This document shows, piece by piece, positions 1-50,271 of a DNA stretch of 57,514 nt. The notes under the pieces were generated by a model. It made no database searches. It had not been told where the DNA came from and was given only the letters and a program-made list of their open reading frames with translations. Made by a program: the position numbers and the translations under genes. Within the stretch, counting starts at the first letter, position 1. Every line of letters starts with the position of its first letter. This DNA comes from Ophiosphaerella korrae (lineage: Eukaryota > Ascomycota > Dothideomycetes > Pleosporales > Phaeosphaeriaceae). The stretch spans positions 1-57,514 of the forward strand of contig JALNQF010000260.1 of NCBI GenBank assembly GCA_028456385.1, written 5' to 3'.

Positions 1-2
1 TT

Positions 3-1897
3 AGAATATATAACCTAGACCTACTAGTAATAGTAAAAATAGACGTATCTAATTTAGTCTATAGAATAGTACTAATATAAGAAGACCTAAAAACTAAGAA
101 AGAATATTTAGTTAAATACTTCTCTAAGAAAATAAAGCTAGTAGAGCTTAACTATCTAATTTATAATAAAGAGATACTAGTAATCTATAAAGTATTTAAA
201 TAATAGAGAGTATACCTATAAAGAGTAAAATACTAAACAAAGGTCTATATAGACTATAGGAATCTTATAAGATTTATACTAAATAAAGAACTAATATAAT
301 AATATACAAGATAGTAGGAATTCTTATTAATATTTAATATAGAAATTATATATATAAAAGAGAAAGATAACTAATTTATAGACGCTTTTAGTAGAAGACT
401 AGACTTATAGAAAGAAGTAAGCGCTACTAGTATAGTTCTAGTTAAAAACAAAGAAGGATATTTAGTCCTAAATATACCTAAAATAGCTGTAATACTTAAA
501 AGAAAGAGTAGTAAGCTAGACGAATAGATTTAGGAAGAAATAAGAAAAGCCCCTAAAGAGATAGAAAAACTTAAGATTAAAGAAAGTCTTACAAAAGCCT
601 ATAGAAGAACGTATATTCTAAGAAAAATACAAAGAGAATTTATATAATAGTTCTATAAACTACTAGTATATAGATATTAAAGAATTAATAAAATACTAGA
701 TAGACTACTAAGAGATTACTATATCCTAAGAGTAAGATAACTAGTAATAGAAGTACTACAAGATTATATAGAATACTAAAAGAATAAGTATAGTAGGTAT
801 ATACTATATAGGAAGCTATAACTAGTAGAAGTACTAGAATAACTATAAGGAGTTATTATAATAGATTTTATTACAAAACTACCTAAGTTAAAAGACCTAA
901 TATTAGGAGTTAAGTATAATAGAATCCTAACAATAGTAGATAAACTTATAAAGTACTTATACTTTAGACTATATAAAGAGAAAAGTAGAATAGAAGTTAT
1001 AGTATACTAGGTTCTAGGAACTACAATTAGCTAATATAGACTACTAGATAAGATTATTATAGATAGAGATATAAGATTTATATTAAAACTATAGAGAACA
1101 ATAATAGTATAATTAGGAATTAAATATATAATATTAATAGCATACTACCTATAGATAGATAGATAATTAGAACGTATAAATTAGATAGTAGAATAATACT
1201 TAAGATACTACCTTAATTACAACTAGAATAACTAGGTATAGCTACTACCTATAGTATAGTTAGTATATAATAGCGTAAAGAATAAGATAATAGAAGTATT
1301 ACCTTTCTTTATAAACTATAAATTTAACCCTAGTATATATAGAATACTAAAACTAGAGATATCTTAGTCTCTAAGAGGAGAAAACTTTACTAATAGACTT
1401 AAAGATATATACAAGTAATTAAGATAAGATATAGAATTCCTATATAATTAAATAGTAAAGTACTATAATAAGAAATATAAAGAGGGACCCTAATTTAGAA
1501 AAGGAGAAAAAGTATAGTTAGTATAGAAAAATATTAAGAGCAAGAGACTAAGCTTAAAATTAGACTACGTTAAGATAGGACTATATAAAATTAAGAAAGA
1601 AGTTACGCTAGTTATATTTAAACTAAAGCTACTAAATAAAATAAGAATATACCTAACTTTTTACGTAGTACTACTTAAGATAGTACTATAAAACGTAGAA
1701 CTACTAGTGTATAAAGTAGACACGTATAGAGAATAAGAAGAATAGGAAGTTAAAGAAATCCTAGTATACTAGTTCTATAATAGTAGGAACTACTATCTAG
1801 TAAAATAGATAAGTATAGACGAAAAAGGACAATTATAAGAAGAAATATAAGAACTAGAGGATAATCTTAACTACTCTAAGAAACTAAAAGACTTCTA
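3..1897 (+). mobile_element. Ty3/gypsy pol remnant (RNase H, integrase, chromodomain-like end)
   Basis: In the frame starting at base 3, treating TAG/TAA as mutated Gln codons, a continuous polyprotein is readable. It starts inside RNase H and reaches the DAFSRR motif near 381, which corresponds to the usual ADALSRR. An integrase zinc-binding region at about 635-790 has its His and Cys ligands changed to Tyr. The catalytic core keeps D near 864, D near 1068 and E near 1170. A GPY/F-like segment and a weak chromodomain-like end at about 1735-1810 follow. The 5' part of the element lies left of the window. The RNase H-then-integrase order identifies the Ty3/gypsy class. It carries dozens of stops and cannot encode a protein. 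Confidence 0.85.
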
Positions 1898-2578
1898 AAG
1901 TTAAAACCTTCTAGAACGCCTAGCGGCAAACTAAGAGAACTAATATTACTATTACTAGATAGAGAGGCAATAGGAGCGCCTAACGTAGGACCTACTATAG
2001 TAATACTAAATACCTTATCTAAGTCTAGCTTAGCTTCTAGAGCTACTAACTATATAGCTAATTTCTTATTATTTAGCGCCTTTATCTTATAAAGATAAGA
2101 GAGATAAGCTTAATTTTTTACTAGCTTACTCTACGTAAGCTCCTAGATCTACTTACGCTTAGCTTTAGCCTCTATAATTTAAGATAGTAATTTCTCTTAA
2201 GCCTAGTTAATAGCTCTCCCTATTATTATTAAGCCTAGATACAAGAATAAGTATAATAAATATACACTCTATAAGAGAGATACTAGATATATTATAAGAA
2301 CTATAAACGTTTACATAGATATATACCTTATAAGCTCTACTATTATTTATAGAAACTATATAAAGAGAGTACTTAGGATTTAACTTAGAGGAAGTATAAC
2401 AAGAATAAGGAAATATTTTAATACTATTGCGTAACACGTAATTAGTAAGAAGATATTAATAACGTGTAGAAGAGGCAACTATAAGGAGTAATAAGGAACT
2501 AGAAATTAATAAAGAAAGTAGGTTAATAACCTTAGCTCTAGGATAGATAAATAAGGACCTACTTAGAGGAGAGGATAG
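1898..2578 (+). other. Element 1 tail up to the polypurine tract
   Basis: This lies between the end of the readable polyprotein and the 3' LTR. I see no coding signal in it. It ends in a purine-rich run, agaggagaggatag, directly before the TG that opens the LTR, which fits the polypurine tract that primes plus-strand synthesis. An open frame of 76 codons on the minus strand around 2,207-2,437 looks accidental. Confidence 0.5.
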
Positions 2579-3008
2579 TGTTACAATAGTAACAAGAGAA
2601 ATATAGATAGAACTAATTAGCCTTATAACTAAAGGATTAAGTTTTTATAAATACAAAGAATATAAACTTAATTAGGAAACTATATATAATTAGGATACCT
2701 AGGGTAATCTATAATCTATAGACTCTTAGCGTTAATAGATTATAGATTAAGGTAATCTATAATCTATTATTCTTAGTAGTAATAGATTAATAGATTAGGA
2801 TAAGTATATAGTTAGTAGCGACGCGCATTATTAAGATAGTATTAGTAATTTAATCCTTTAACTATAGAACGCTAATATAAGATAGTTATAAGATATCTTC
2901 TATTATTTATAGTTATTGTAGATTACTTATATAAACCTTTACTATTACCTTACAACCTACTAATACTAGAAAGGCTATTAGGAAGTCGACTCTAGTAAGC
3001 CTATAACA
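2579..3008 (+). repeat. 3' LTR of Ty3 element 1 (430 bp)
   Basis: A 430-bp LTR beginning TGTTAC and ending AACA, oriented with the pol remnant to its left. Two further copies of the same LTR lie inverted at 4155-4584 and 7200-7627. Shared features are the opening TGTTAC, a run of alternating 'aatctataatctat' motifs in the middle, and the closing region. The sequence after 3008 is the gag region of another copy, so this element appears to have inserted into that gag. The target duplication cannot be tested because the 5' end lies outside the window. Confidence 0.85.
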
Positions 3009-4154
3009 TGTAGTGTTTCTTTCTTTTTCTCTATTATCTTTAACTAAGTTTCCTTATCTTTTTTATAGTCCTTACTTTTATAGTCTTTTATATAGTGTTC
3101 TAGTTTTCTATATTTATAATATACTATATCCTTTTTCTTCTTTAATTAGTAGTCTTTTGTATAGTAGCCTTTCTTACTATAGTTAAAATACGTAAAGTCT
3201 TTGTTTTTCTTTCTCCTTTTGTCTTTATTTGCGTTAAGGATTATAGGGTCTCTAGCGTTCTAGTTTTTAGTTTAGCTACTATACTTGTTCTTTTTCTATT
3301 CTTAAAGGTTGTTGTTAATTTAGATTACTTATTATTTTAGAGCTTCTAGTATCCTAAGTTTCTCTATATATATTATCTTGTATTAAATTTTTACGTTTAG
3401 TCCTTATTTAAATTGTAATATAAGGGCTAATTTATTCTATTCTATATTTTAGCTTAGTTATTTAAATTATAATACGTATTCTAAGATACTTTTATTTTAT
3501 ATAAGCCTTTTAAGTTTCTCTTTAGCTTATTAGGTAATATCTATATCCCTAAATACTGCTCTTATTTATTTAGTAAAGTATTTATAGCTTCTAAAAATAG
3601 CTTTAGTTTTATCTTTTTAGGTTATTAGAGAGTACGTTATATAGTCTATCTAGTAGGGCTCGTACTATCTTATTGCGTCTTCTTTAAGGTGTAGTCTAAT
3701 ATATATTACCTTCTTTTCTTCTATATTAAAGTATAGTACTTATACGTCTATCTAGAGTTGTGCTAATACTATAAAGGGTCTTAAATTTTCCTTTATTCTA
3801 TTAAACTTTTTAAGAATAGGTATCTTAGGTAGTTTCTTTGTTGCACTTATTTCTAGTTATTAAGTAATTAGCTCTATCTAGTTCTAGCCTTTAATAATAG
3901 CTTTAATTTATACTTTATTCTATTTTAAGTAGTCTTGTAGTTTCTTATTCTACGTTTCTAGTGCTTTAATTACTATCTTTATATCTTCTTTATTATTAAT
4001 TAGTTTATTTATATAGTCTTTAATTATTTCTTATATAGTACTATCTAACTTATAACTACTTCTAGGGGCTTTACTTATTAAACTTTCTACTATTATATTA
4101 GCTAGACTATACGCTACTTACGCTTTACTCCTTGTAATAACTAGATTAGTAAGG
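3009..4154 (-). mobile_element. Truncated gag region of Ty3 element 2
   Basis: On the minus strand this follows the LTR at 4584-4155 and reads as a RIP-damaged gag. It aligns by eye along its length with 6075-7199, the gag of element 3. The nucleocapsid zinc knuckle (CCHC type) is recognisable near 3140-3200, with its Cys codons changed to Tyr. It stops abruptly at 3009, exactly where the LTR of element 1 ends, consistent with disruption by that insertion. Confidence 0.75.
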
Positions 4155-4584
4155 TGTTATAGGCTTACTAGGGTTAACTTCCTAATAGCCTAGATAGGTA
4201 TTAGTAGATTATAAGGTAATAACAAAAGCTCGTATAGTAATCTATAATAGGCTGTAAATAATAGAAAATGTTTTATAACTATTATTGTATTATTACTTGT
4301 AGTTAATAATTAAATTGCTAATACTATCCTAATAATGCGTATCGCTACTAACTATATACTTGTCCTAATCTGTTAATCTATTACTACTAAGAATAATAGA
4401 TTATAGATTATCTTAATCTATAATCTATTAATGCTAAGAGTCTATAGATTATAGATTACTCTAGGTATCTTAATTATGTATAGTTTCCTAATTAAGTTTG
4501 TATTCCTCGTGTTTATAAGAACTTAATCTTTTAGTTATAGGGCTAATTAGTTCTATCTATATTTCTCTCGTTACTATCGTAACA
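4155..4584 (-). repeat. LTR of Ty3 element 2 (430 bp, inverted)
   Basis: An inverted copy of the 2579-3008 LTR with the same length and ends (TG..CA on the minus strand). In its own orientation it precedes a gag region, so it is probably a 5' LTR. The sequence just upstream in element orientation (from 4585) is not a polypurine tract but the protease region of element 3. It is therefore better read as a second element inserted into element 3 than as the 3' LTR of element 3. Confidence 0.8.
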
Positions 4585-7199
4585 ATATATAACTATATTA
4601 GCTTTTAATATTTCTTTCTTAGGGTAGCTAATTCTCTCTATTCTCTAATTAATTCTTAGGTTAGTTATCTATAACTATAGTATTCCTAGTATTATATCTT
4701 GTTTATTATTAATTATTGTTATATCTATAACTATATTCTTAATTTCTAATCTTTCTAGCTTTAGTGTAGAGGGTGTTATTTTAAACTTTATAGGTTCCTA
4801 GAATAGTTTTCTTTTAATTATACTTAGTTGTTAAGAGTACTTCTTTGTAGTATAAGTTATTTCTTAGCTTTCTACAAACTTCTTTAATATAAAGTTCTTT
4901 ATAGCTCTACTATTAATTATTATTTGTACTTTCTTTCTTTAGTATATACCTGTTTTTGTAATGTATAGGCTTCTTATACCTTTTAGCTTTTCTTGCTTAG
5001 GTTTTTCTTTAAATTATCTATTCTTCTAGGGCTATTATCTTATTTTACGTTTATAGTTTTTATATTTTAGGTATTTGTTATAAGTATATTTGTACTATAG
5101 TTTTCTTTTAATATATTCTTTTAATAGTTTAGAGCCTAGTCTAATTACTATATATTCTTTGTTAGGTATTTTAATTATTTTCTAACCTTAGATATCTTTT
5201 CTTGTAATTATATTTACGTAATTGTATCCTTTTCTTTATATAGGCTATACGTAGTTTTATACCTTAAGTTCTCTATATATATAGTAATTTGTGTTTAGGT
5301 ATAATATCTATAATATCTTAGTATGTACTAAGTGTTCTAAGTTTATTCTCTTGTCGTCTCCTACCTTGTAACTATCTATTCTAGGTCTTGTGTTTATTAG
5401 GATATAGTATACTACTAGTACTTGTAGTATATAGGCTTTATTAATCTATTGCGTTTTTTTTACAAGAAACTACTATTCTCTTTATATAAGTATTCTTCCT
5501 ACTATAACTATATATTGTTCTATCTATTATTAGAATATTATAAACTTTTTTACTTTAAGATTACGTTCTTTCTACTCTTTATACGCTTTCTCTATACTTA
5601 TAACTAGTAAGTATTTCTAAATAAATTTCTATTCTTTATTTTGTTCTTTTATATCTATTATTGTGTAGCTATTATAGCTATACGCTCTTAACTAGGTATA
5701 CTTAGTACCTCTTATATTAGTTTATTTCTCGTCTCTTTGTAATTCTTTAGAGGAGACTATTATAGTCTCTTTATCTTATACTAGTCCTTTAGCCTAGATT
5801 AATAGTATCTAAGGTTCTTCCTTTTCTAAATCTTCTATTAGTAAGTCTATTATATATACTATTTCTTCTAGCTATACTTTTGTTCTTTCTTTTATTACTA
5901 CTACTTTATACTTTTATAAGAACTATCCTACTCTTTATTTACTAGAAAGATATATATAGTAGTTATCTTTATAATAAAAGGTCTAATAGAGTATTATATA
6001 CTATATTTCTTTACTTTTAGCTACTTTCTTTTAAAGTTTAGCTTATATCTTTAGTACTTCTTTTTTATTCTTAGTTGTTTTTAACTATATTTTTTTCTTT
6101 AGGTCTTTACTTTTATAGTCTTTTATAAAGTATTTTAGTTTCCTATATTTATAATATATTGTGTTCTTTTTCTATTTTAACCTATAATCTTTTACGTAGT
6201 AGCTTTTTTTACTATATCTAAATTACGTAAAGTCTTTGTTTTTCTTAAATTTCTTGTCCTTGTTAGTGTTAAGGATTATAGGGTCTCTAGCGTCTTGGTT
6301 TTTAGGTTGTCCTCTATATTTGTTTTTCTTCTATTCTTAAAGATTATCGTCTATCTATATTACCTATTATTTTAAGACTTCTAGTGTTCTTAGTTTTTCT
6401 ATATAAATTATCTTGTATTAGATTTTTAAGTTTAATCCTTGTTTAAATCGTAATATTAGTAATACTTTATTCTATTCTATATTCTATAATAGTTATTTAA
6501 ACTATAATATATATTTAAAAATACTCTTATATTATATAAGCCTTTTAAGCTTCTCTTTAGCTTGTTAAGTAATATCTATATCCCTAAATACTACTTTTAT
6601 TTGTTTAGTAAAGTATTTATAACTTCTAAAGATAGCTCTAGTTTTATCCTTCTATATTCCTAGTACGTATGTTATATAATCTATCTAATAGGATTTAAAC
6701 TATCTTATTGCATCTTCTTTAAGGTATATTCTAATATATATTACCTTTTTATCTTCTCTATTAAAGTGTAGTACTTATATATTAATCTATAGTTGTACTA
6801 CTACTATAAAGAGTCTTAATTTTTCTCTTATTCTATTAAATTTCTTAAGTATAGGTATCTTAGGTAGCTTCTTTGTTACACTTATTTCTAGTCTTTAAGT
6901 AATTTATTCTATTTAGTTTTGTCTTTCTATAATAGCCTTAATTTAAACTTTGTTTTACTTAATATAGTCTTGCAGTTCTTTGTTCTACGTTTCTAGGATA
7001 TTAATTATTAGTTATATGTCCTCTTTTTTAGTAATTAGGTTGTTTAGGCGTATTTTAACTACTACCTAGTTAGTTTTATCTAACTTATAACTACTTAGAG
7101 GTGCTTTACCTCCTTTCTTAGTTAAACTTTCTACTATTGTATTAGCTTAGACTGTGCGCTACTTACGCTTTGCTTCTCTTAATGTCTAAATTAGCAAAG
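4585..7199 (-). mobile_element. gag and protease region of Ty3 element 3
   Basis: This lies downstream, on the minus strand, of the LTR at 7627-7200. Gag spans about 7150-6075 with a degenerate CCHC zinc knuckle near 6200-6260. The part around 4960-4680 reads like a retropepsin, with the DSGA active-site motif degraded to NSRA followed by a typical NFI segment. Reverse transcriptase is absent, because the element is cut at 4585 by element 2. Stops and Tyr substitutions occur throughout. Confidence 0.75.
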
Positions 7200-7627
7200 T
7201 ATTACGTAGCTACCTACGTTAACTATAGGTAGCTATTAGGGTGTTAGTAGATTAAAAGTTAATAGTAAAGTTCGTGTAAGTAATCTACAATAACTAATAT
7301 TAATAGAAGATGTTTTGCAATTGTTTTGTATTAGCGTTCTATAGTTAAAGGATTGAATTGCTAATACTATCTTAACAATGTATATTGCTACTAACTATAT
7401 ACTTGTCTTAATCTATTAATCTATTACTACTAAGAATAATAGATTATAGATTACTCTAATCTATAATCTATTAATGCTAAGAGTCTATAGATTATAGATT
7501 ACTTTAGGTGTCTTAATTATATGTGGTTTCCTAATTAAGTTTGTATTCCTTGTTTTCGTAAGAACTTAATCCTTTAGTCGTAGGGCTAATTGGTTCTATC
7601 TGTATTTCTCTTGTTACTATCGTAATA
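7200..7627 (-). repeat. 5' LTR of Ty3 element 3 (428 bp, inverted)
   Basis: The third copy of the LTR, inverted. Its right end reads cgtaata where the other copies have cgtaaca, and its left end reads tattac where the others have tgttat, so both terminal dinucleotides have been altered by transition. It differs from the copy at 4155-4584 at many transition sites, as expected for RIP acting on repeated copies. Confidence 0.8.
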
Positions 7628-8441
7628 TTACGCCTGTAACAAAGAGCTACTCTTAATCTTAATAAGAAGAACGTTAATTAGCGTAAATTTAGGAAGTCTC
7701 TTGCTAGTAGTAATTAGTAGATTAATTAATCTTAAGAGAAGAAAAGATTAGAGCTTACTATATTAGATTATAGCTAAGTATTTTTAGTAGATTTTTATAG
7801 ATTGTTTAGATTAGAGCTAAGTAAAAGTAGATTTTTACGTAATACACTCTAAGCTTATAGAGTACAAGCTATATAACTTAACTAATTATAAATTAAGCTA
7901 AAAGTATAGAATAATAATACTTAACCTTAAAGTAAATACTAGTAATAAGCAGAATTGACGCTTAAAACGCCTTAATCCTAGGGGGTGTGTAGTAGAAATC
8001 AGTGCCTAGGAGAGGATTACACGATCTTGAGATCGCCTACCGAGGTAATCGGGCACCGGATTATTAGTCTTACTGATCCTCAAGTATATACACTTAGCTA
8101 GTAGTCTGATCAACTTCTCATTCACACAAAGATCGTTCTTTACGCTTCTACTTTCCATCACAGTATTTCATCTAAAAACCCCGGTTCATTGGTGCCAGAG
8201 CCCTTGCATGTAGCACGTTTTTAGCCACGTGAATGAGGCCCAGCAATTGTCCCGAATCTATCGAAAGATAGTGTCGGGTAATATCTACAATGCACCAGGA
8301 TGAATCTGGCACCGCCCTGTAACAGCTAGTACCAACCACGCGTAGGATCAACAACGCAATTGCAGGGTCTTCAGAAATGTTCTCAGAACCTAAGACAATT
8401 TTCTTAAATCGCGTACTTCAGAAAACGACATTTTCAAGCAA
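7628..8441. other. Edge of AT-rich block and intergenic DNA
   Basis: The left 330 bp is still RIP-like AT-rich sequence with no recognisable element. Composition normalises near 7,980. From there to the receptor pseudogene start at 8442 I find no gene. A 60-codon minus-strand frame at 8172-8354 has no recognisable content. Confidence 0.5.
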
Positions 8442-9704
8442 ATGGAGAACATTTTCCCCGCCGCGTATGATGCTGCGACACTCTACAATATAGATCATGC
8501 TGGTCGGGTGAGCCGAGAAACTTTTCAGGTATGTGGACTGTCAACCAAGAAAACACATTTTTGTACTAAAATATCTCATCGCAGACAATCGTAGGGTTCT
8601 TCTTCACATTGGCGACGCTGGCACTACTCGGTCGTGTGGGAGTCCGATTGATCATCCGTCGACGACTTTTCCTCGATGACTACATCCTTCTATTCGGATA
8701 TGCCGCACTCTGTTCTGCAACTGCAATGATATACAGATTTTTGCATTTGATATACGTACTCAATGCTCTAAAATACGATAAAACCGTGGTCCCAACTTTG
8801 CGCGATCTCGAAGCAATTGGACAAGCACAAGCGATCAATTACTCATTGATAGCAGTAATCTGGACTGCGATTTGTTCTGTCAAGTTTTGTTTTCTCGCAA
8901 CACTGAAGGTACTAATAGCGAATGTGTCAGTTCGAGTAATAGCATTTTACTGGTTTACAGTCGCAATCTCTGTTGTGACGTGGTGTCTCTCATGGACAAT
9001 AGCTTTCATCATCTGCCCATACGTTGGAGTGGAACTTAGTATGTCGTTACCACAACATCTTGAGCCCAGAAACCAGAAACTGATTTTTTTTTTTCAGTTG
9101 TGCACTGCTCCCCAGAGACACCATTTGTAAAGACGTTGGCGTTGAGCATCTTGGTTACTGTTTTGGACAGTGTAACGGATTTGATAAGTATGTAATGCCG
9201 TCGCAAGCTGTCTAATCCGTCTAACTGGCGAATAGTCGTTATTATACCTATCTGGATTCTACGAAACGTCTGACTGAGGTTGAAGCAGAAGTTAGCGATC
9301 GCCGTTTTTCTCTGCCTCTCAGTTGTGATGATAATCACCTCAGTAATCCGGATGGCCATGTCGCGCTTCAAAGGACATAATGATTATACATCAGAATATC
9401 TGATACTTTACCTCCAGGCGTGCATTGCCGTACTCATGGCATGTATCGCTGCCTTTAGAAGTGTTTTTTTGTGGAACATAAGCGCAAGGTTCAAGAGGAG
9501 CAGGTCCGCCTCCACGACTTAGCTGGCCCTGCAGATCTCCCACAACGCCCGAAAAACCTGCGCAGCCATATCCAGCGGATGAGAGCGAAGGCCAAAGAAA
9601 ATGATACAGAGTATCAAACCACATTGACTGGAAAAGCGAATTTTCTACCTAGGATGCAAACGGATGGACCAAAACTCAGTGGGGGTGTCTACCTTCATCA
9701 ATAA
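8442..9704 (+). pseudogene. PTH11-like rhodopsin-fold membrane receptor, broken
   Basis: Exons 8442-8528, 8585-9038, 9098-9187 and 9236 onward join in frame across introns of 56, 59 and 48 bp with canonical borders. They encode several hydrophobic helices, an early R-RxFLDDY motif, a CSPETPFVKTL motif and an IVIIPIWILR helix, the pattern of the fungal rhodopsin-domain family related to Pth11. Two lesions interrupt it. There is an in-frame TGA at 9271-9273, directly after IPIWILRNV, and a frame change at a T7 run at 9464-9470, after which the conserved tail continues in another frame to a stop at 9704. It is probably no longer functional, although the rest is well preserved. A sequencing error at the T-run would explain only the second lesion. 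Confidence 0.7.
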
Positions 9705-17165: not shown

Positions 17166-20100
17166 CTATCCCAATAATCTTATCTGTCGCTCCAAAAACA
17201 GTAGCGTTGGCCGATCACTTTCGTATGTTATTCTCTTTTCAGAGATATTGATATCGATGTCCAATGGTCCAGTGCGCAAATACTCATGTGCATTTTTAGG
17301 ATCAATAATGGACTCGTACCACAAATGTATACCGTATGCTTTCCTCAATGTCTGGATCATGAGTACTTCAAGACAAATCCATGCCTTCTCGTAGTATTCC
17401 TCATCGACGAGGCTTATCACAGCATTGCATTGGGCAAGGTTCATGAAGAGGGCAGCAACGCCTGGTCTCTGATTATTCTGGTCCACACAAGCAGATTCCT
17501 GATAATCTTTTTAGTATTCTTTACCGAAAATTGATGAAAGGGGTATACCTACAACCCAAATGCATAGTTGCTCTGGATCAACCTCACGATGAATATTAAG
17601 GAACTGCTCAATCGCCCTAAGCATACGGTGGTATTGCGTATGCACATCATCATCTTGCGAGAATACAGAAGCCTGGACACCAGTATTTTTCGCGATCCAT
17701 CTGTAGGAAAAGAACAAAATGAAAGGATTTTGGAGGCTTCCTTTTCCCTTGGAAGACTCCTGTGTATGCCCATCAGTTGACCTTGGCAGTCAACCACACC
17801 GCAGAAAGTCGACATAGCTTACATATTTCAACCCATCAAAGATGGATTGTTTTTCGGTGTCTTCTGCAAGGGATATTGCATATGCTTGACGAAGAATTTG
17901 TAGCGTTGAGTCTTTGCTTGTACTAAGAAGGACTGGCCGCAGTATATTTTGGAAGATGTCTCTATATCCTTTTCGAAGAGTCGCCTGATACCGCAATTGA
18001 GTGAGTTCTTGATTAACGTCGCCCCCTTCACTTAAGATTTGAACTCCTAACCCTTGTTCGATGATCTTTACGGTCGCATCGTCGTCATTGTATACAGCGC
18101 ATTCTAAAGCTGAATAATCCTGTTGGTCTCGAAGTTTTAAATCTGCACCAGCATTGATCATCTCGATTATGTACTGTCGGTGCTCAGGAGAAATCTCGCT
18201 GCACAAGGCAATAATAGGAGGGCAACCATGAGGCGTGTTAAACAAAGCCAAGGCTTCGTCTTTTCGTCCCGCAAAGAGTAGTGCTCGACCGAGAAACGCT
18301 TTGGCAAAGCCTAGCTTCGTTGCGTTTTGTTGCGTGCACATGAGATCGTAATTCTTCTGCGCTATTTGGATGGCCTTCTCGTAATCTCCTTTTGCAATAA
18401 AGTAAGAGAAGGCGGCTGAGTCGGCCCAATTGCTACGGCGTCTAGGGCTCTGCTGATGCGTAGCAGCCTGCGACAACGGCATCTGACCTTCGCTACTATT
18501 CGCCTCATGGCCCGTATATGACTCCCCCGATTCAGCTCTTCCGTCTCCTTCGCGGGGACTTTGGGTCCTTGTACCTGATGTAGACTCTTGGTCTTCCGTT
18601 GTCCTCCAAGACGAAAATCTTGAGATATATCCCACCTCCTTACTGGTGAGTACGTTTTCGAACTCGGCAGGAGATTGTCCATGACTTCTGGCCACAGAAA
18701 AGCCAAGGCTGCTTGACTCCGATTTGGTATCGCCCGTTTCGCCTTTGGACTCGAGTTTCGCCACCTGCACCGAAGCTCTTGATCCTCCAGTTTCTTCCTC
18801 TTCATCGATGTTGGGCAAGACGAAAAGGGCGATGTCCTCCATATGAGCGGCAAGATGTCCCTGTAATGCCGACAGTGGCAGTTTCTCTGCACAGATGAGA
18901 CATGAGTCTTTCTCGTCGTCTGAGACATCGACTTGGCGATCGCAGAGATCCATAACGACACCCAACCAGGCTGGCGAAATTGATTCGCTATAGTGCTCTC
19001 GGAGATGTGTCGACATTTCCTCTCTGTTGGAATATATCTTGTGGCACTCTTTGCAGACATACTCGCGCCGATGAATCTGAAGTTCGTGATAGATCCAGTC
19101 GTGGCGGCTAACGTATAGCTTCTCGGCGTTCTGACAGTCCTCGAACGTGCAGACGTACGGGCGGAGGTCACGAAATACATGACGCCTGTGCGATGCCTTG
19201 TCATTATGATTGGACCAATATTATGGTACTAGGGTGGTTGACTAACTTCCATGACTGCCTGTTCTGCATCTCAATAGACTCAAGTGTCATCCCGCAATAA
19301 GGACAGGGGAATGTGGCATTCTCATTCGCCGTCTTTGGGGGATCCGGGACAGAGTTTGATTGCCCTTGACCGATTGCTGTGCGCGCGTAGACTGTCCGTG
19401 GCCGAAAATTACTTTTCGTATCGTGAATGTCCGAGACAGCAGCCGTCGAGAAACTTCGCTTCGACACGGCTGACCTCGGCCCTTCACGTGAGAGGTTCGG
19501 ATCGGGTGGTTTGGGGGTAACCGTTTGGCTTTGCAATTTCTGCTTCTCTTTTTTAGTGAGAATCTGTACCATACCTGGTGTTGCAAGATGGGCTGCGTTG
19601 GTCGCATCCTGCTTGGGATCATACGGATGATCGGCCCAATACTGAACCTGCTCTCGTCGTCTTGTGTTCGCTCTTGCAAGTCGATGGCAGAACCACAGAA
19701 TGTCTTCTACCCGGTCACTTGTCAGCTCTTGCCCCACGGGAGTAACGTCTTCATCCTCAAACTTGATACTCCACCCACTCTTGGTCAAGCCGCGCCATTG
19801 CAGCACCTTCTCTACTATGTGGCTCTCGTCCGAACTGCCAAAAGCGACCATTAATGGCACCACACCCCCCGAGCTGCTTAGCGTGGCTGTATTTGGATTC
19901 GAATTAATAGAGTGGATATATTTGTCTGCAATCCTTGGACGGCGAAGCAAAGAAGATACGTCGTAAAGTGATTGTATCTGTTCCCGCATCCGCCGGACTA
20001 ATATACGAATCTTTAGCATCCTCTGATGTTCGAATTCACCATCATCTTCGGAATCAGAATTCGAGTCGGTGCTGACACTGCTGGTCGAATCGCGGTCCGA

Positions 20101-20498
20101 TCTGACAGCGGGATCATACTTCCTTTTGGCGATAGATGTTGCTACAGTAGAGTCAGATGGAAGTCTCAACAACGCCAACTATATTACTTGCTTTGGTCGA
20201 GGAGCACTCTCAGCCGTACGAGGATGGCCTGAACTAAATGCTTGAGCTCGTCATCGTGCCGGAGCGTGTCATCCAAAGAACCTCGAGCTCTTGCCGAGAG
20301 GCCTGCTTTGGTCTGATCGCCCCAGATCTTGGTCCTCCCGTACTCTTCCAATATTTCTGGAAGATGAACCTGTTTTAGGTGGATCACATAACAGTTGTTC
20401 TCGCTGAGAGCCAGTAGGAATCCTCCAAACGACTGGATGCACTCCCTGTATGACTCTGAAAGGGATGGGGTATTCGTATAGGTTGAGAGACACTCCAT
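17166..20498 (-). CDS. C2H2 zinc-finger / ankyrin protein with C-terminal TIR-like domain
   Basis: Five exons (20498-20188, 20122-19247, 19185-17823, 17759-17553, 17498-17166) join with all phases closing to give 1029 residues. The last three introns have canonical borders; the first intron's acceptor is the least certain point. The N-terminus has a conserved helical region (KIWGDQT, SLDDTLRHDDELK) and an SLLRRP motif. A C2H2-type Cys/His-rich region (CPYCGM..., VCTFEDC, CKECHKIY) spans about residues 370-470. A weak ankyrin-like part (GADLKLRDQQDYSALECAV) lies near 740. Residues about 864-990 read FILFFSYRW ... ACVDQ ... AWICLEVLM, resembling a TIR fold, with a Glu near 963 placed like the NADase glutamate of TIR enzymes. 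It sits head-to-head with the gene at 20961. Function is unproven; an immune or cell-death role is inference. Confidence 0.75.
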
Positions 20499-20960
20499 AA
20501 TAGCGAGCCATATAGTATTTGGATTATCGGCGCTTTAACATACCTTGGCGCCGCGACAGTCGAGAGTCTGCCTTTGTGATGTTGAGGGTTTTGACCGCAA
20601 AAACTATGATTTGTTGTCTTTGGAGCCTGATGCCATAGTACCGGGCCAGAGGGGCTTCGACTAATAGCGAGGAAATTTCCAATCAATGGGGACCATTTGC
20701 GGCCAGCACACTGCATGGCTTCTGCATGAGTGATCCTCGGAAACTCAGAAGCGGGTGACGTTGATGGGCTATTAGTTGACTGGCCCAATGAGATCCTGCC
20801 ACGCTAACCATGAGCATGCTGAACCCCGCTCGCCATATTGGCTCGGCAAGCGGGAGCTGAGCACAAATCCAGCCCACATCATCGCAGAACAAACAGCTAA
20901 CCTAAGCGAAGGGTGTTGTGCACTCACGACTCCCTCCCACCACGTTCTAACATTCTAACC
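20499..20960. promoter_or_regulatory. Shared divergent promoter region (462 bp)
   Basis: The TIR-like gene starts at 20498 on the minus strand and the HeLo-like/DUF7580 gene at 20961 on the plus strand, leaving one 462-bp region for both promoters. I identify no specific binding site. The arrangement suggests the two genes may be co-expressed, which is inference. Confidence 0.45.
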
Positions 20961-22884
20961 ATGGCTGAAGTCGTCGCGGGCCTTGTTCTAGGCGGTATCC
21001 CTATCGCAATTTGGGCCCTCGAGAAATATGCGGAGCCTTTTGAGGTCTTTAGCAATTACCGAACTTCAATAGAGACCTTCCGGACCAACCTGATCTTGCA
21101 AAACCGGCATCTCCAGACAACTCTCTCTAATATCGGACTAGGCAGTGAGCCATCGATTAATGAGCTACATGAATGCTTCGAGGCCAAGTATCATGGCATC
21201 TCTCGTGAGCTGGTGTTCATTGTTCAACGCATGGACGAGGTCACGGCTGGGCTTATGAAGAACCTAGATATCGACGTCAACGGAAAGGTATATAGCCTTG
21301 GAACAACGTCTATCTCGACCTCGGAGATATTGTTAGTATAGTTAAAGCTAAGCTAATTCGTGACGTATATGTAGCCAAATGCGCTCCCTAATAAGGTTCA
21401 CTGGGAATGGCGCAGGGTGAAACACGCCCTCAGCACAAAAAAACGCAACAAAGTGATCGAGGATCTGAGACATTGGAACGAAGACTTGAGGAGATCTCTT
21501 GAGAAGTCCGAAGTCCCTGCGGAAGACGATAGTTGCAAAGTTCATGATCTCAAGCGCTGTTTCAATATTCAGCATTGTAATTCTATCCGCCAGTGCTTGA
21601 ATTCTTTTCACCGAGTACTCGAGTCTGAATTCCGTTGTTCCTGTTCGCCTCCTCACCAAGCTGTCATCGATCTTGACTGGGCGAAGTATGGGTCTGATAC
21701 GGCCAAAACTTTCAAAGTGGCCATCTCTTACGGGACAAGCGCACAATCGCCCAAGGAACTTGGTTCATGGCGGAAGCTTTGCATTACTTCAGAGAATCCC
21801 ACAAAAATGGTCGATTCCATCCCTGAGCCACTGAACCTATCATCTCCGCTGGCTGGGGCTCCTTCCCCGACTTCCCTTCGATCCAAGGTTGCACATCTCA
21901 AGTTCGTCCGCTCATTATCCCGGGCACCCCCACCTCCGCCAACTCCCCCGGCTACGAGTAGTGAGTGACCAAAAGCTTCTCTCTAGAGAAAATTGTGTTA
22001 AGCTCGTAGTGGTAGTTCAATCTCCAAATCCGTGCCGGGCATTGACTGCTGCGTCAACCTCGGCAAGCACCCAGATAACCAGCCTCTGTGCTGTAGTGTG
22101 CGCAGAGCGTAACCCATGGACTCTGGCAGGCTTCCTCAAAGACCCACACGAGGACCAAAATCGAAGGTTTTCTCTCGACCATAATCAAACGGATTCGCCA
22201 AAAATAGTCAAAGCAGTTCCCCTGAAGTCTCTATTTTCATCTCATGAGCAGCAAACCCAGCAACGAAACCCTTGTCTTGCACTGTCCGCAAAACAGAGGT
22301 ATGGCATCGCCGCCGCCATTGCCTGGTCAGTCCTGCACCTGGGCGGTAGTCCCTGGTTTGGCGACCACTGGGACCAAAAGCAAGTGAACATTTTCCTCGA
22401 GAAAAACCAGAGCGGTCGGGAGGTTCTCTCGCGGTACCCGTGTGCCTCGTACACTTTCTCCGCGCCAGCAAGCCTAGAGGAGCCGCTCGCGAATGACTTC
22501 AAGCATCTCATTCCCAACAGAACCGTCTTTGCCCTCGGCATTTTCCTTATTGAGCTCTGCACCAACAAGCCTTTTGCGGAGATCCGACAGGCCGGTGAGG
22601 GCGCAACACCAGCTTCGCTGCTCGATGACTATCAGGCCGCGCTGAGCAACTTGGATGAGGTGTACCGCCTCGCGGGGGACTCTTATGGATATGCAGCGGA
22701 GCGGTGTGTGAAGTTCTCGTTCCAGGGGCGGGACGTGTACAAAGACTTTGATTTCTCACAGTTCCGGCAGCAGTTCTATGATGCTGTGGTTGCGCCGGTC
22801 CAGGCGACCTATCTTATGTTCCGGATTCTCATAATCCTGGATAAGTTCTTCGCGGTGGACTATATGTCCGAATTTATTAGGTGA
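20961..22884 (+). CDS. HeLo-like N-terminal / DUF7580 (pseudokinase-like) protein
   Basis: Exons 20961-21287, 21396-21960 and 22010-22884 join in frame (introns of 108 and 49 bp, the second GTGAGT...CGTAG) to give 588 residues. The start MAEVVAGLVLGGIPIAIWAL is a glycine-rich hydrophobic segment of the kind that opens HeLo-like membrane-targeting domains. The remainder matches the fungal DUF7580 family: KVQDLKRxF-like, WTLAGFLKDPHEDQNRRF, GIAAAIAWSVLHLGGSPW and VFALGIFLIELC. The last two resemble the C-lobe of protein kinases, but I see no clear HRD or DFG catalytic motif, so a pseudokinase fold is inference. A proline-rich linker ends exon 2. It shares a promoter region with the TIR-like gene. 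Confidence 0.8.
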
Positions 22885-44884: not shown

Positions 44885-46194
44885 TTAATCTGAACCAGCC
44901 CGTGAGCTAGGCAAGCTGGCAAATTGAGATTCATAGAAAGAGAGAAGGCTCGAAACATTTGATCTTGTGTGAAGTCTAAAATCCCATGATTTTTCAGATT
45001 GAGATGAGAATCTGCCATCGCTTGATCCGTCTAGGGAGTAGTTGTCGTCCTGGGCGAAGTAGCCATTCTGGGCAAAGTAGTCTTTTTCCGACTCCTCCAA
45101 ACTTCGTTCCTCGGTGTGTGCTGGTGGATTGTGGTCTAAGGCAAATGTTCTTCCTCGGGAGAAGTTGTGTCTACCCACTGAGCGATATGATTGACGTCTT
45201 TGAGGCTAACGTTGAATGTCCCGACAGGCTTGTTGAGGCTCAGTACGGGGCCCTTAGGCCAAGGAAGTGAGCATAGCGAGAATTGGTGGATGTGTTTTAA
45301 GACATGCTCTATTAACTCTGGGGAATCCGGGGGCCCAGAGGAATCGCAGAGTGGGCATTTTGTTATACCCATGACGTGGGTTACGGATTCAGACAAGACG
45401 TTGGCAATCTCATCATTAGGGACATCATCCGAATGATCTGTTTGGAGGTGGTTCATGATGCCAGCTAGTGAGGTGAAGATCGGAGGATCTCCGTGAGAGC
45501 AAGGATATTGCCATCGAGACTAATAGGCATTCATAGCATGCTCATTCCATTCTTTCTTAGTGACGAAAAGTTTGTAGGGAGTCGGACAGTTGTCGAAAAT
45601 GCAGGTGTAAGGGCACAAGTCGTGAGCCAAGTGCTTCCTAAACCGGCTGTCGTCTGTTTCTCTTGCGAGAATATCTCGGCAACAGCATGGGCATTTGAAA
45701 AAAAGTTGGAAGATACCCGAGACCTTCACCTTGGGATATTGAGCTATGGTAGCGATTCTAGTGACCCTTGACCCGGCTGGGCCCTTCTGTTGAAGTCTTT
45801 TAAAACCTGTCTCTAGAGCTATCTCGGGCGTCGTCAAGATCTCACTCAGAGTTCTAGAAATGACGGGCTTCAGCTCTTTTTTCATCGATGCCATATTGCT
45901 TACTTGGGGTTTCGAAACTTCTTGAGGATGGCCAAATGTTGTTGGACCTTTCAACAAGCGCGAATGTCTCTGAGCTTCCATGAATCGGTGTCGACGTCGC
46001 AAGTTAGCCTCGACTAGCCGGTCCTGAACTGGGTCAAGTTCTAATTTGGCGAAATAATCAAAGCTCCTTGTGTCTTTGTCGATATCTCTGGGGCCTTCAG
46101 TGGGTCTTGACACGATTACGGCAGCGAGATGTGCTCTGAGCTGGAGATATTTGTCCCTGTTCCTGTCGTGGATATTATGAGAGTTCCAGCACAA
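44885..46194 (-). pseudogene. C2H2 zinc-finger protein, C-ter part of a broken gene
   Basis: Minus strand: YLQLRAHLAAVIVSRPTEGP and ELDPVQDRLVEANLRRRHRF, then a Cys/His cluster (CPCCCRDIL, HDLCPYTCIFDNC, KKEWNEHAM), IMNHLQTDH, ITKCPLCDSSGP and SLPWPKGPVLSLNKPVGTF. This is the order seen in a large fungal C2H2 family. TAG at 45520-45522 interrupts the frame between the second and third Cys/His groups, with the family sequence continuing in frame afterwards. A further frame change near 45,150 precedes the acidic, Ser-rich C-terminus. The upstream STAND-like part lies in an overlapping frame. No intact product can be made. Confidence 0.7.
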
Positions 46195-47045
46195 GAACGA
46201 GGGAACATATTCTCCAGTCGGAGATATATTGCCCCCTCTGCCTCTAACCCGTCAAAGACCATAATCCAAAGTCCCTCATACGTCCAAGAGAGGTATCGGA
46301 AAAGTGCCTTGTCCCCACATCTAGACATTTGATCTCCTGATCCATCTCTAAGTTCCGTTCCGATGAGGGTTTCGAGGATTTGCACACATGACTTTTGGAT
46401 AGAAGCTACGCTTCGAGCGTCAACCCAGAGAATCGACCAATCCTCTAACTGCTCTTTCAACTCATTAACTAGCTCTACTATAATATTAGTGATCTTATCG
46501 GGATCACGCCCGGTGAGTATGATATTTGGCAGGAGACTCAGTTGTCTAACAAGTCCAACGTCATCCTTTGTCGGCTTCCTGAATTCTTCACCGAGAGGCA
46601 TAGGGCTGTTTTTGTACTTGTTAGAATGTCCGGTCAGATCGGTGTCTTTGGTCAAGCCAGTGTCTATCCTTTCCGCAATGTCTTCAATGTCGACTCGGTC
46701 TGGGCCGGGATATGGAAGAGGGAAATTGATGGGATACTTAACCTTTCCTAAGATTTATTTAACCAAATTCCATTTACCTTAACTGACAGCCGGGCTTTAG
46801 TATAAAGCAGATACGTGAAAAATTAACTTACTTTTGAGAAGATTCAGAAAATCTACTATGGCTGCCATTCCGCTAGCATCCACATCAAAAACTCGCTCTA
46901 GCGCTGCATTTAAAATATCCTGCTCCATCTCAAGTGTGATGTTGGGTGGCGGATGTGGTTGGTCTCGAATCCGTGGAATTTTATCAATGTAGCTAAAGAT
47001 TTGGCAAATCCCCAGTAGATTGACGAGTGGAGGACCATAACTTGC
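46116..47045 (-). pseudogene. STAND/NACHT-like NTPase fragment, 5' truncated
   Basis: Exons about 47045-46832 and 46747-46116 join across an 84-bp intron (GTAAGT...TCTTAG). The first reads PPLVNLLGICQIFSYIDKIP and LERVFDVDASGMAAIVDFL. The second has LVRQLSLLPNIILTGRDPDK, WSILWVDARSVASIQ, WTYEGLWIMVFDGLEAE and GTLIISTT, the order of a STAND ATPase with Walker B (IMVFDG). The P-loop position reads GRDPDKIT and lacks GKT/S. The frame is closed by TGA at 47046-47048 with no ATG, so the 5' end is lost exactly where the protease frame on the other strand begins. It overlaps the C2H2 part out of frame. Confidence 0.6.
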
Positions 47046-47047
47046 TC

Positions 47048-48018
47048 ATGGAACACGATATCGGGGCTAGGACTGGTCCGAATGTCATCAAGGTTGCCAT
47101 AATAGACTCGGGAATAGATTACAATCATCTAGAAGTTGATCGAAGCCGCATCAGGAACTAGAAATCTTGGATTGAAAATAGTGATGCAACAGTTGACAAA
47201 CTCGGCCACGGAACGCATACTGCTGGTATTATCTTGCAACTCCCTACCAATGTTGAATTGTATATTGGCAAGGTGACGGACACCAAGAAATTCAAGAGAG
47301 ACTTGATCACAGAGGTACGAATCTTCTAAGTCTTTGTATGCGGAGTCTATGGCTTATATAAAAACAGGCCATAAAACATGCGAGAACAGAGTGGAAAGTG
47401 AACATGATCTCTCTTTCCTTCGGCTTCGATGAGTCTGATACGGACGAGAACCGTGAAATTCAAAACTGCATCAAAGAAGATATCATAATATTCTCCTCGG
47501 CCTCCAACGACGGCGGTGAAGGGGGCCGAACCTACCCTGCCGCCTATGACCGAGTAATATGCACCCACTCGGCCACATCACAGGGAATTGCTGCCGCAAG
47601 CAACCCAAGTCCAATCCGCCAGAAAAACGTTAACAATTTCAGCACCGTTGGCGAGATGGTCAAGTCTTATTGGCATTTGCCCAAAATCGAGGAAGGACGA
47701 GATAAAGGGAGGGCCTACGAGTTCAGTTACCAATCCGGCACGTCTATGGCTACTCCTGTGGCTGTCTCGATAGCGGCATTCATGATAGGTTATCTTCGCA
47801 AGTACGCAGAAGGCCACCGATGGGGAATCAACCCGTGGACCCCGTTGGGAATGCAAGCGATCTTCCAGAAAATGAAGGAGGATCGGGGTGAATACGAATG
47901 GATTAGCCTGCAGAGGTATTTCCGTCAAAAGAAGACAGTCGAGGGAGTCTTACGCAGCTTAAAGAAAAGGTTAGCATCATCAATGCTATTTCCAAGCCTC
48001 TCAGATGGGTCATTATAA
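47048..48018 (+). pseudogene. Subtilisin-like (S8) serine protease, HET-Q2-like, with nonsense codon
   Basis: Exons 47048-47314 and 47368-48018 join across a 53-bp intron (GTACGA...AACAG) to 305 codons. All three catalytic positions are present: Asp in VAIIDSGIDYNH (codon 20), His in GHGTHTAGI (54) and Ser in GTSMATPVA (215), with an oxyanion-hole-like SASND near 136. Codon 38 is TAG (47159-47161), between the Asp and His motifs, with no splice site to remove it. The N-terminal part expected in longer subtilisin-like proteins is missing, since the frame abuts the STAND fragment. It is convergent with the gasdermin-like gene, 118 bp apart. In Cryphonectria the HET-Q2 subtilisin-like protease cleaves and activates the gasdermin HET-Q1, which makes this the likely former role. 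Confidence 0.75.
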
Positions 48019-48136
48019 TGGTAGTGAACTCTTCAGAAGTAGAAATTTAACTGCATTTTTCATATCAAGCTCCGAGTGATTCGTATCTCGTTATACACAG
48101 AAACAATACCATTTCGCTGCCCTTTGCAGGCCCAGG

Positions 48137-48901
48137 TTATTCAAGAATGAGTTCGTCAACAGTAACCGGCTTCTTGAGATCCTGAACCGCCTCACCATCC
48201 GAATCATCTGAATCATTCGCAGCCAACCGGCCGTCCTTAACAACAGGTCCCGAATCTCCCATTTTCAGTATCTTCGACTTGAACTTGGGCGTCGTCACCT
48301 TCCTCAACTCCAGCGCAAATATCTGGTTCCTGCCAGACTTCGCCTTGAACACGGTCGCCGTCTTCTTATGGGCTCCAGCGCCGACCCTTGGATTTCCAAC
48401 GTTCCCGCCCGGCACCCCCGCCACGGCAATTTCCCCAATTGGGGCCTCGACGCGCCCATCGACTTGTAGCTCACGCTTGTTTTCAAAGTCGATGGTGACG
48501 TCTTCGCACGTCATGATGCCCACCACCACCCACACCGGGTTGAGATACGGCCACTTGATCCACCTGGGCACAGTCTGCCTGACGGCCGGGTCGGCCTTGC
48601 GCTCGTCGAAGAACTGGTCGTGCTGCAGCAGCCGCTTGAACCGGATGAGCTTGCCCTCTAGATGCATCTTGTCTTCCTTGTCGGCGTGGACGTTGAATCC
48701 GGCGAGCGACTCGAGCGAGGCGGTGGCCGAGACGCCGCCTTCTTTGCTATTGGTGAGGTCAAAGTCGGTGAGGCATCCCTCGGTGAATTTGAGTTTGTTC
48801 CACTGGGCTTCTTCGACGGGGCAGTAGTCTTGCACGGGGCTGAGGTATTGCTTGACGATGGCACCGATTACCTCCTTTTCGAATTTTTCCGTGTCCGCCA
48901 C
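48137..48901 (-). CDS. Gasdermin-like pore-forming protein (RCD-1/HET-Q1 type), start codon replaced by GTG
   Basis: An uninterrupted 254-codon frame. Its size, the order of segments (TDFDLTNSKEGGVSATASL near 45, PVWVVVGIMTCEDVTI near 122, QIFALELRKVT near 193) and a short acidic tail (about 212-254, NDSDDSDGE) fit my memory of fungal gasdermins of the RCD-1/HET-Q1 group. Those are 240-280-residue proteins that form membrane pores and kill the cell after loss of a short C-terminal piece. I could not run a search, so the assignment is inference. The first codon is GTG at 48901-48899. The frame is open upstream for about 55 codons without any ATG, and the next in-frame ATG is codon 79, inside the fold. 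Expression is doubtful unless a near-cognate start is used. Confidence 0.62.
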   Translation of the reverse strand: MADTEKFEKEVIGAIVKQYLSPVQDYCPVEEAQWNKLKFTEGCLTDFDLTNSKEGGVSATASLESLAGFNVHADKEDKMHLEGKLIRFKRLLQHDQFFDERKADPAVRQTVPRWIKWPYLNPVWVVVGIMTCEDVTIDFENKRELQVDGRVEAPIGEIAVAGVPGGNVGNPRVGAGAHKKTATVFKAKSGRNQIFALELRKVTTPKFKSKILKMGDSGPVVKDGRLAANDSDDSDGEAVQDLKKPVTVDELILE

Positions 48902-50271
48902 GATTGGTATTTCAAGATGACAAACTCGGGATCTCGTTCCATGGTGAATCTTATATGTTTGCGGCGGCTGTGTTGGAAGGTTGGTTGATGATAATGAGGA
49001 TAATAATGATTTCTGGTCGGCTGCACAGCGCCTTTGGCTCTGTATAGCCCCACTCCTAGCTTATATAAACCATTTACATAATCTACGTTTACAGCCTGTA
49101 GACTTATCCTATAGCCCTTCCTATTAGTAGCCCTCTAGGACTTACTAATTATTAGCTTAGTGACCTCTTTATACTAGTTGTTAGAACATAGCTCTACTCC
49201 ACTACGGCAAACAACCAAAGAGATTCGAATAATCAACAACGTTGATTACTGGAGTAGAACAGTATATACGGTCCAAGGGCCCTTAGCCTTCGGCTTGCGC
49301 AGCTACGGCCTAGCCTACAGCCTGACATTTGTCCGTGCGGGCCTGCACGGACTAGTTATACCCATTTACCAGCCTAGGTAACTATACTCAAGCTAGCTCA
49401 AACTACTCAAGCTAGCTCAAATTACTCAAGCTTACTCAAGTCCAGCCACCGATTCCTATATATCTAGATAGCCCTCCAGCATTTGCAATATAGTGATCCT
49501 TTCCATGCCACTCCTAAGCTTAAATCGCGCCCGATTTCTCCTGTCACACATGGTTATCTTCCTACGCACTAGACCCCTACACCAAACCACAACAATCCAT
49601 TCTTTCCACGGAGAAAACTCCCAGAACTACCAAACTACATTTCCCGGGAGCATGCAAGTTAGGCCATGTATGAGAATGGAGAATGGAATGAGCAGAGCGT
49701 GTTTTCTGTTCTGGCGCGAGGGCGAGATGGATTTGCGAAGATGGGGGTTTATGCCGACGGAATTGGTATACAAGTGTGCTTTTATCTATACGTAGTCACT
49801 CGTTCTGGCTTTGGGGTCTCGCTCTCGCCCTTTTCAGTGAGCTTTTCTTGAAAAAAATAAAAAAAATAAAATAAAACGCTTTTAGACTCCCTCATCGATC
49901 AATCTGCCATACTGCTTTTCACGCCCATACTTGACCCTCCTCCCACTGCCTTCGCTCCAACTTTCATCACCAACCACAGTAACAAAAGAGCGCAAGCACC
50001 CACCCCCATTACCACAACACAGCAAAACACGATAGCACACAAAAATAACACAATCCATTCTCTCGTCCCGTTTCATCCATCCCTTCCCTAGCACCCAACT
50101 CCGCCACAAAAAAATACCCTTAAATAAATATAATACAAGTGCCCAATAGAGCATACCAGCATTACCCTACGTCATTTCCATTCCCCCTGCTTCCAAAAAT
50201 TGCATTCCCTGCAGTCATTACCGGTCGCTCCACTTGACTAAAACAGACACGTCAACCAAACTCCACTCTTT
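48902..50271. other. Degraded repeat DNA and intergenic region
   Basis: Holds the right copy of the inverted repeat (49,223-49,295) and a run of AAGCTAGCTCAAACTACTC-like words (about 49,385-49,445). No gene recognised. The last part is probably the 3' untranslated region of the CNNM-type gene ending at 50272. Confidence 0.5.
49223..49295 (-). repeat. Inverted repeat flanking the gasdermin/protease segment, right copy
   Basis: Opposite-strand match of 44,562-44,640: TTCGAATAATC, GAGTAGAACAGTATATA and GGGCCCTTAGCCTTCGGCTT on the plus strand. It is bordered by other low-complexity, repeat-like sequence. It is probably part of a retroelement end or of paired insertions. Confidence 0.7.

Follow-up and report, generated by a model that had tools for sequence, protein, structure and literature searches.

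A probably decayed gasdermin-protease locus in Ophiosphaerella korrae and a recurrent Cys/His-rich neighbour gene

Introduction

Gasdermins are proteins that kill cells through membrane holes. The described fungal members include RCD-1, which reportedly works without cleavage by means of two allelic variants (PMC12881547), and HET-Q1, a protein of 278 aa (PMC10989679). The protease HET-Q2 takes approximately 5 kDa off the C terminus of HET-Q1, and these genes as well as RCD-1 are described as allorecognition genes (PMC12881547, PMC10989679). The HET-Q1/HET-Q2 pair is attributed in the same two sources to Podospora anserina, not to Cryphonectria as an earlier note on this DNA had it. About 80% of fungal gasdermin genes are reported to adjoin a protease gene, and about 60% of those proteases are of the S8 type; protease-gasdermin clusters in fungi are already established (PMC12881547, PMC10989679, PMC10197012). 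Clusters of two or three genes are mentioned in general terms in the review PMC12881547, which also describes bacterial gasdermins that adjoin protease genes and act as anti-phage systems, and which names what the fungal protease-gasdermin sensors detect as a major open question.

Here, we describe a locus in a 57,514-nucleotide stretch of Ophiosphaerella korrae (contig JALNQF010000260.1), the whole of which is called the window. The locus is probably a decayed fungal gasdermin locus, in which a frame with a predicted gasdermin fold faces the convergent gene of an S8 protease; the intact form of this protease would probably have cut the acidic tail of the gasdermin.

Results

Layout of the locus and its lesions

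The locus comprises the following features:

48137..48901, minus strand: gasdermin-like frame of 254 codons, body and acidic C-terminal tail (frame list, relatives, predicted fold, profiles)
48898..48942, minus strand: first 15 codons of the gasdermin-like gene (MERDPEFVILKYQSW) in a different frame (family profile E 0.0013, as a separate piece)
48019..48136, no strand: gap of 118 bp separating the two convergent stop codons
47048..47314, plus strand: S8 protease exon 1 with the Asp and His motifs, starting at ATG 47048 (alignment of relatives)
47159..47161, plus strand: in-frame TAG within protease exon 1 (both flanks align to relatives)
47315..47367, plus strand: predicted protease intron, GT...AG, phase 0 (placed by hand; relatives match both flanks)
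47368..48018, plus strand: S8 protease exon 2 with the oxyanion Asn and Ser motifs (Pfam PF00082 E 1.4e-7, frame from 47398)
45139..46251, minus strand: third gene, Cys/His-rich, pointing away from the protease (profile and genome searches)
45520-45522, minus strand: in-frame stop of the third gene, inside a conserved stretch
46116..46754, minus strand: frame of 212 codons upstream of the third gene

The earlier note had described a plus-strand protease frame that ends at 48018 with Asp, His and Ser motifs, and this frame was found with all three motifs present: IIDSGID, GHGTH and GTSMATP, which we take to be the subtilase Asp, His and Ser motifs, respectively. The frame of the second exon matched Peptidase_S8 of Pfam (PF00082) with an E value of 1.4e-7. 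The opposite frame was likewise recovered as the note gave it, with 254 codons on the minus strand, an end at 48137 and 118 bp between the two stops; its coordinates hold, but its start does not, as position 48901 is a GTG, which is unusual as a fungal start codon. Close relatives of the gasdermin-like protein start with MKGDPEFV... (MKGDPEFVILKYQSWLD), and the matching start in the window is the ATG at 48942, which lies in the other frame. As the N-terminus of the relatives is encoded from this ATG, the gasdermin-like gene is frame-broken near 48896-48900, after codon 15.

The protease reading frame is not open across the catalytic domain either: the TAG at 47159-47161 lies between the Asp and His motifs. 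As a HET-Q2-like protease, the window copy is thus a relic at best, or else a member that has been mis-assembled. As assembled, each of the three genes carries one lesion. Intact relatives are known for the gasdermin-like protein (for example P0001 and P0006) and for the protease (P0025). The 212-codon frame at 46116-46754 had no relative at the other loci of the genome and no match in Pfam; it occupies the expected site of the N-terminal part of the third gene.

Positions 1-8000 of the window are AT-rich (22-28% GC per kb) and bear the signature of repeat-induced point mutation, with a TpA/ApT ratio of 1.72 and a (CpA+TpG)/(ApC+GpT) ratio of 0.22. This process was considered as the origin of the stops and rejected, the TpA/ApT ratios of the three genes being ordinary (0.37-0.68, against 1.72 at the AT-rich left end).

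Relatives of the gasdermin-like frame

The 254-codon frame had 65 relatives (best E 2.1e-151), of which every one with a source name is annotated as "hypothetical" or "uncharacterized". The gasdermin body, otherwise open, shares 91% identity with a Leptodontidium protein; P0006 of Trichoderma evansii is 82% identical to the window protein. A family tree was built from 64 rows after the fragments P0020 and P0081 had been dropped; in it, the window protein carried the class label Leotiomycetes, chosen after its nearest named relatives. In this tree, the window protein falls in a set of ten rows (100/100, branch 0.59) together with Leptodontidium, Clarireedia, T. evansii and six unnamed proteins. 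The copies of T. harzianum, Phialocephala and Tricladium fall elsewhere, that of T. harzianum far off, and the family tree conflicts with the species tree. The position of T. evansii beside Leptodontidium and Clarireedia suggests an exchange between fungal classes, as we assign these organisms to classes, or a very long retention of gene lineages.

The 254-codon protein compared with gasdermins

A Pfam scan of the 254-codon frame returned no family, and no gasdermin family of Pfam appeared among the 66 members of the window family, which gave only stray matches to 11 other families, each of these hitting one or two members (best E 0.0053). Three classical gasdermin-type genes of the same genome likewise had no Pfam gasdermin match at E<=0.1. 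A single-sequence search of the PDB with the 254-codon frame gave one match with an E value of 1.4, which was judged to be due to chance. With a sequence profile, the PDB match was RCD-1-2 only, and its E value of 0.068 is not significant alone.

Meanwhile, structure prediction pointed to a gasdermin. An initial fold model built from 21 rows had a pLDDT of 38 and was left out of the fold search. In the model used, that of a relative with 91% identity and of middling confidence, Foldseek ranks 1-32 and VIA rows 1-25 were gasdermin entries throughout, including the bacterial structures 7n50, 7n52 and 9a84. The TM-scores of this predicted model were 0.41/0.54, and 95 of its 268 residues were below pLDDT 50. 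The predicted fold is thus gasdermin-like rather than unrelated to gasdermins, and another membrane-attack fold of the MACPF/CDC type is very improbable for this protein. In the same predicted model, an acidic low-confidence stretch at residues 239-254 is followed by a conserved end at a pLDDT of about 81, which, by analogy, might be inhibitory.

A single hhalign comparison of the window family with the classical family of the same genome gave an E value of 5.1e-6 and a probability of 86 over the region VVGIM...IFALELRKVTT. A profile of the seven classical sister genes described below, with the window left out, scored the window frame at E 0.019, which ranks it first among 4857 frames once those of the seven genes themselves are set aside; a relic on contig C846 ranked next (E 0.092). 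With the leave-one-out profiles, the window frame scored between E 1.4e-4 and 0.3, while true members scored between 3.9e-13 and 4.3e-32. The reverse search with the window-family profile found L012 alone of the seven (E 0.22). The window protein is thus a very divergent relative, whose identity rests mainly on the fold and the locus. The gasdermin-like/subtilisin-like pair that the earlier note had proposed is thus backed by the predicted fold, by the profile comparison with classical genes of its own genome and by the architecture of the locus.

Seven sister loci in the same genome

The 14 matches of the protease relative P0025 in the 63-Mb genome fall on nine loci. One of these is the window, another is a weak match at C556 (E 0.066), and the remaining seven are the sister loci, which were thus picked on protease similarity alone; 9.9 kb around each were examined. 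At all seven, a frame of the classical fungal gasdermin type, initially spotted by eye, lay no more than some 1.5 kb away from the protease:

L011, 5560-6638: sister gasdermin-type frame
L012, 5880-6842: sister gasdermin-type frame
L013, 5693-6514: sister gasdermin-type frame
L014, 7040-7909: sister gasdermin-type frame
L015, about 7508-8454: sister gasdermin-type frame
L016, 2683-3693: sister gasdermin-type frame
L017, 3213-3896: sister gasdermin-type frame

Against the PDB, L012 matched RCD-1 sequences only (best E 0.0058). A genome search with L012 alone recovered five of the six other sisters (E 1.2e-19 to 0.031) and a relic on contig C846 and missed L017, which was also the weakest sister when each was scored with a profile of the other six. 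Relative to the protease, three of the seven frames have the convergent orientation seen in the window; a further three are in tandem and one is divergent. Searches of the genome found no further copy of the gasdermin subfamily of the window, the window being the sole match.

A genome search with the Pfam S8 family gave 24 matches at 19 loci, namely the seven sisters, the window and 11 others. No gasdermin-type frame was found in the 9.9 kb of any of these 11 other loci (best E 0.3). Such a frame therefore lies beside the S8 gene at 7/7 loci of the P0025-like type versus 0/11 other S8 loci, and the genome has at least eight gasdermin-protease loci. The relic on C846 (9137-9574, L018) is a remnant of the classical gasdermin type with five TAG stops and the remnant of a Cys/His-rich gene nearby, without an S8 match; it is perhaps a ninth, dead locus. 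Searches for related loci in collections of viral and genome contigs returned 32 and 30 stretches with the pattern, respectively, none of which was confirmed.

For the subfamily of the window itself, pairing in other organisms was judged from contig sizes. The longest contig was identical in size to that of one of the 65 gasdermin relatives for 5 of 16 protease relatives (3897, 6809, 17525, 107263 and 1750). The match at 1750 comes from the PF18998-bearing subtilisin P0034 and probably arose by chance. Among the closer protease relatives, 4 of 13 matched. The expected number of matches is 0.03, and a count of four was never attained in 20,000 jittered trials. These identical sizes indicate that the relatives probably adjoin S8 proteases, contrary to the prospect, raised in the earlier note, of homologues that never lie beside proteases.

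The Cys/His-rich third gene and DUF7580

Besides the window and the C846 relic, every one of the seven sister loci has a copy of the Cys/His-rich gene, whereas the 11 control S8 loci gave only noise (E 0.47 and 0.95). The match at L015 was weak (E 2.4e-4) because this copy runs past the examined stretch. When the L013 copy was searched against the whole genome, eight places reached E<=0.001 (12 candidates scored); these were the seven gasdermin loci and positions 45346-45642 of the window, with none outside gasdermin loci. The third gene is head-to-head with the protease in the window and at six of the seven sisters; that of L015 sits beyond the gasdermin gene.

The third-gene piece of the window, used as a query at E<=1, found all but two of the seven sister loci. 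It also hit eight places that are not gasdermin loci, with E values from 5.7e-6 to 0.17, some of them weak. Seven of these eight places (C190, C523, C889, C61, C512, C176 and C180:19080, the last in the window) are head-to-head with a DUF7580 gene at a distance of up to 4 kb, C334 being the exception. From the side of DUF7580, 14 of 27 loci have a Cys/His-rich neighbour and 13 do not, so the association is not obligatory from that side. The pair in the window is as follows:

17793-20178, minus strand: second Cys/His-rich gene, with weak C2H2 and TPR matches
20913-22884, plus strand: DUF7580 gene (E 9.6e-17), head-to-head with the Cys/His-rich gene

No S8 protease match was found beside this pair. 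Meanwhile, DUF7580 lies upstream of S8 in all seven sister proteases. At L013, the S8 match starts inside the DUF7580 frame, and a DUF7580-S8 fusion across introns is likely at the other sister loci. DUF7580 was found neither in the window protease nor in P0025 and P0029, the relatives being covered up to about 534 residues; a DUF7580-bearing form of this protease subfamily, longer than about 534 residues, may exist.

As the trio recurs at seven other loci, the third gene is likely part of a putative fungal self-destruct system. We tentatively propose, at somewhat less than even probability, that fungal gasdermin systems of this type are three-part: a dedicated Cys/His-rich protein, usually encoded head-to-head with the protease, would partner a DUF7580 sensor module wired to differing outputs, including S8 protease plus gasdermin, and the window would hold a stripped form, a protease without DUF7580, that has since decayed. 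We found no literature on DUF7580 and none joining fungal gasdermins and C2H2; no paper title among the matches listed concerned a third gene of gasdermin clusters, and the words "zinc" and "C2H2" are absent from the main text of PMC12881547. The Cys/His-rich third gene is therefore provisionally regarded as new; the primary HET-Q1/HET-Q2 paper may describe a third gene.

Discussion

By analogy with HET-Q1, the intact S8 protease would cut the gasdermin in its acidic stretch ahead of the conserved DELILE end. The cleavage zone would be the disordered acidic stretch, which in the relative P0001 spans residues 239-254, while the conserved end itself may act as an inhibitory plug. Such a cut would free the pore-forming body, which would then form membrane pores and cause cell death, and the third gene may take part in sensing or restraint. 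As neither gene of the window pair is open from start to stop as assembled, this mechanism is unlikely in the window copy. For the same reason, the locus more likely was such a module than is one, of the two options that the earlier note had left side by side.

It is rather unlikely that the lesions are errors of assembly or sequencing and that the living fungus has an intact, functioning locus. Such errors would agree with a gasdermin body that is otherwise open at 91% identity to the Leptodontidium protein and with the small size of every lesion, judged from the assembly alone; against them stand the separate lesion that each of the three neighbouring genes has, the frame of 212 codons ahead of the third gene, which has no relatives at the other loci, and a protease frame that begins about 20 residues later than P0025 and P0029. 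A protease unrelated to the gasdermin-like gene and adjacent to it by chance is extremely improbable: the layout of the window subfamily was read directly at the window locus only, but the contrast of 7/7 with 0/11 loci, the recurrence of the third gene and the matching contig sizes all speak against it.

The decayed gasdermin locus that we prefer need not have served allorecognition. The proposal of the earlier note that the locus serves, or once served, heterokaryon incompatibility (het) in particular, and not general defence, is doubtful; it was considered here in one genome. HET-Q1/HET-Q2 and RCD-1 serve allorecognition (PMC12881547, PMC10989679), and the family tree disagrees with that of the species in placing the T. 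evansii copy near Leptodontidium and Clarireedia in the ten-row set (100/100). A single genome with at least eight such loci argues against this role, and the stimuli of such sensors are a major open question according to the review (PMC12881547). As each of the eight loci detected in this genome carries the third gene, this gene is a concrete candidate for the missing component, be it a sensor, a guarded target or a brake. Moreover, as the subfamily was missed by Pfam and by the single-sequence PDB search, fungal gasdermins may be more numerous than present counts suggest.

The window locus shares features with several described systems. Bacterial gasdermin-protease operons have the fold, as predicted for the window protein, and the protease neighbour in common with it; a Cys/His-rich third gene is not mentioned for them in the review (PMC12881547). 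For RCD-1 of Neurospora crassa (PDB 8jyy, 8jyz), the identity is 11-15%. HET-Q1, with 278 aa, is a short gasdermin like the members of the window family (56 of 65 relatives have 266-307 residues), a likeness in length. HET-Q2, with 388 aa, is a short S8 protease, as are the relatives P0025 (307), P0027 (310) and P0029 (330 residues). The locus differs from the HET-Q1/HET-Q2 pair in that its gasdermin-like and protease genes are both broken and a third gene is present. Finally, the locus shares its layout and protease type with the Q2-L/fGSDM two-gene clusters; unlike in these, the gasdermin of the window is highly divergent (E 0.019 with the profile of classical members) and a Cys/His-rich third gene recurs in this genome.
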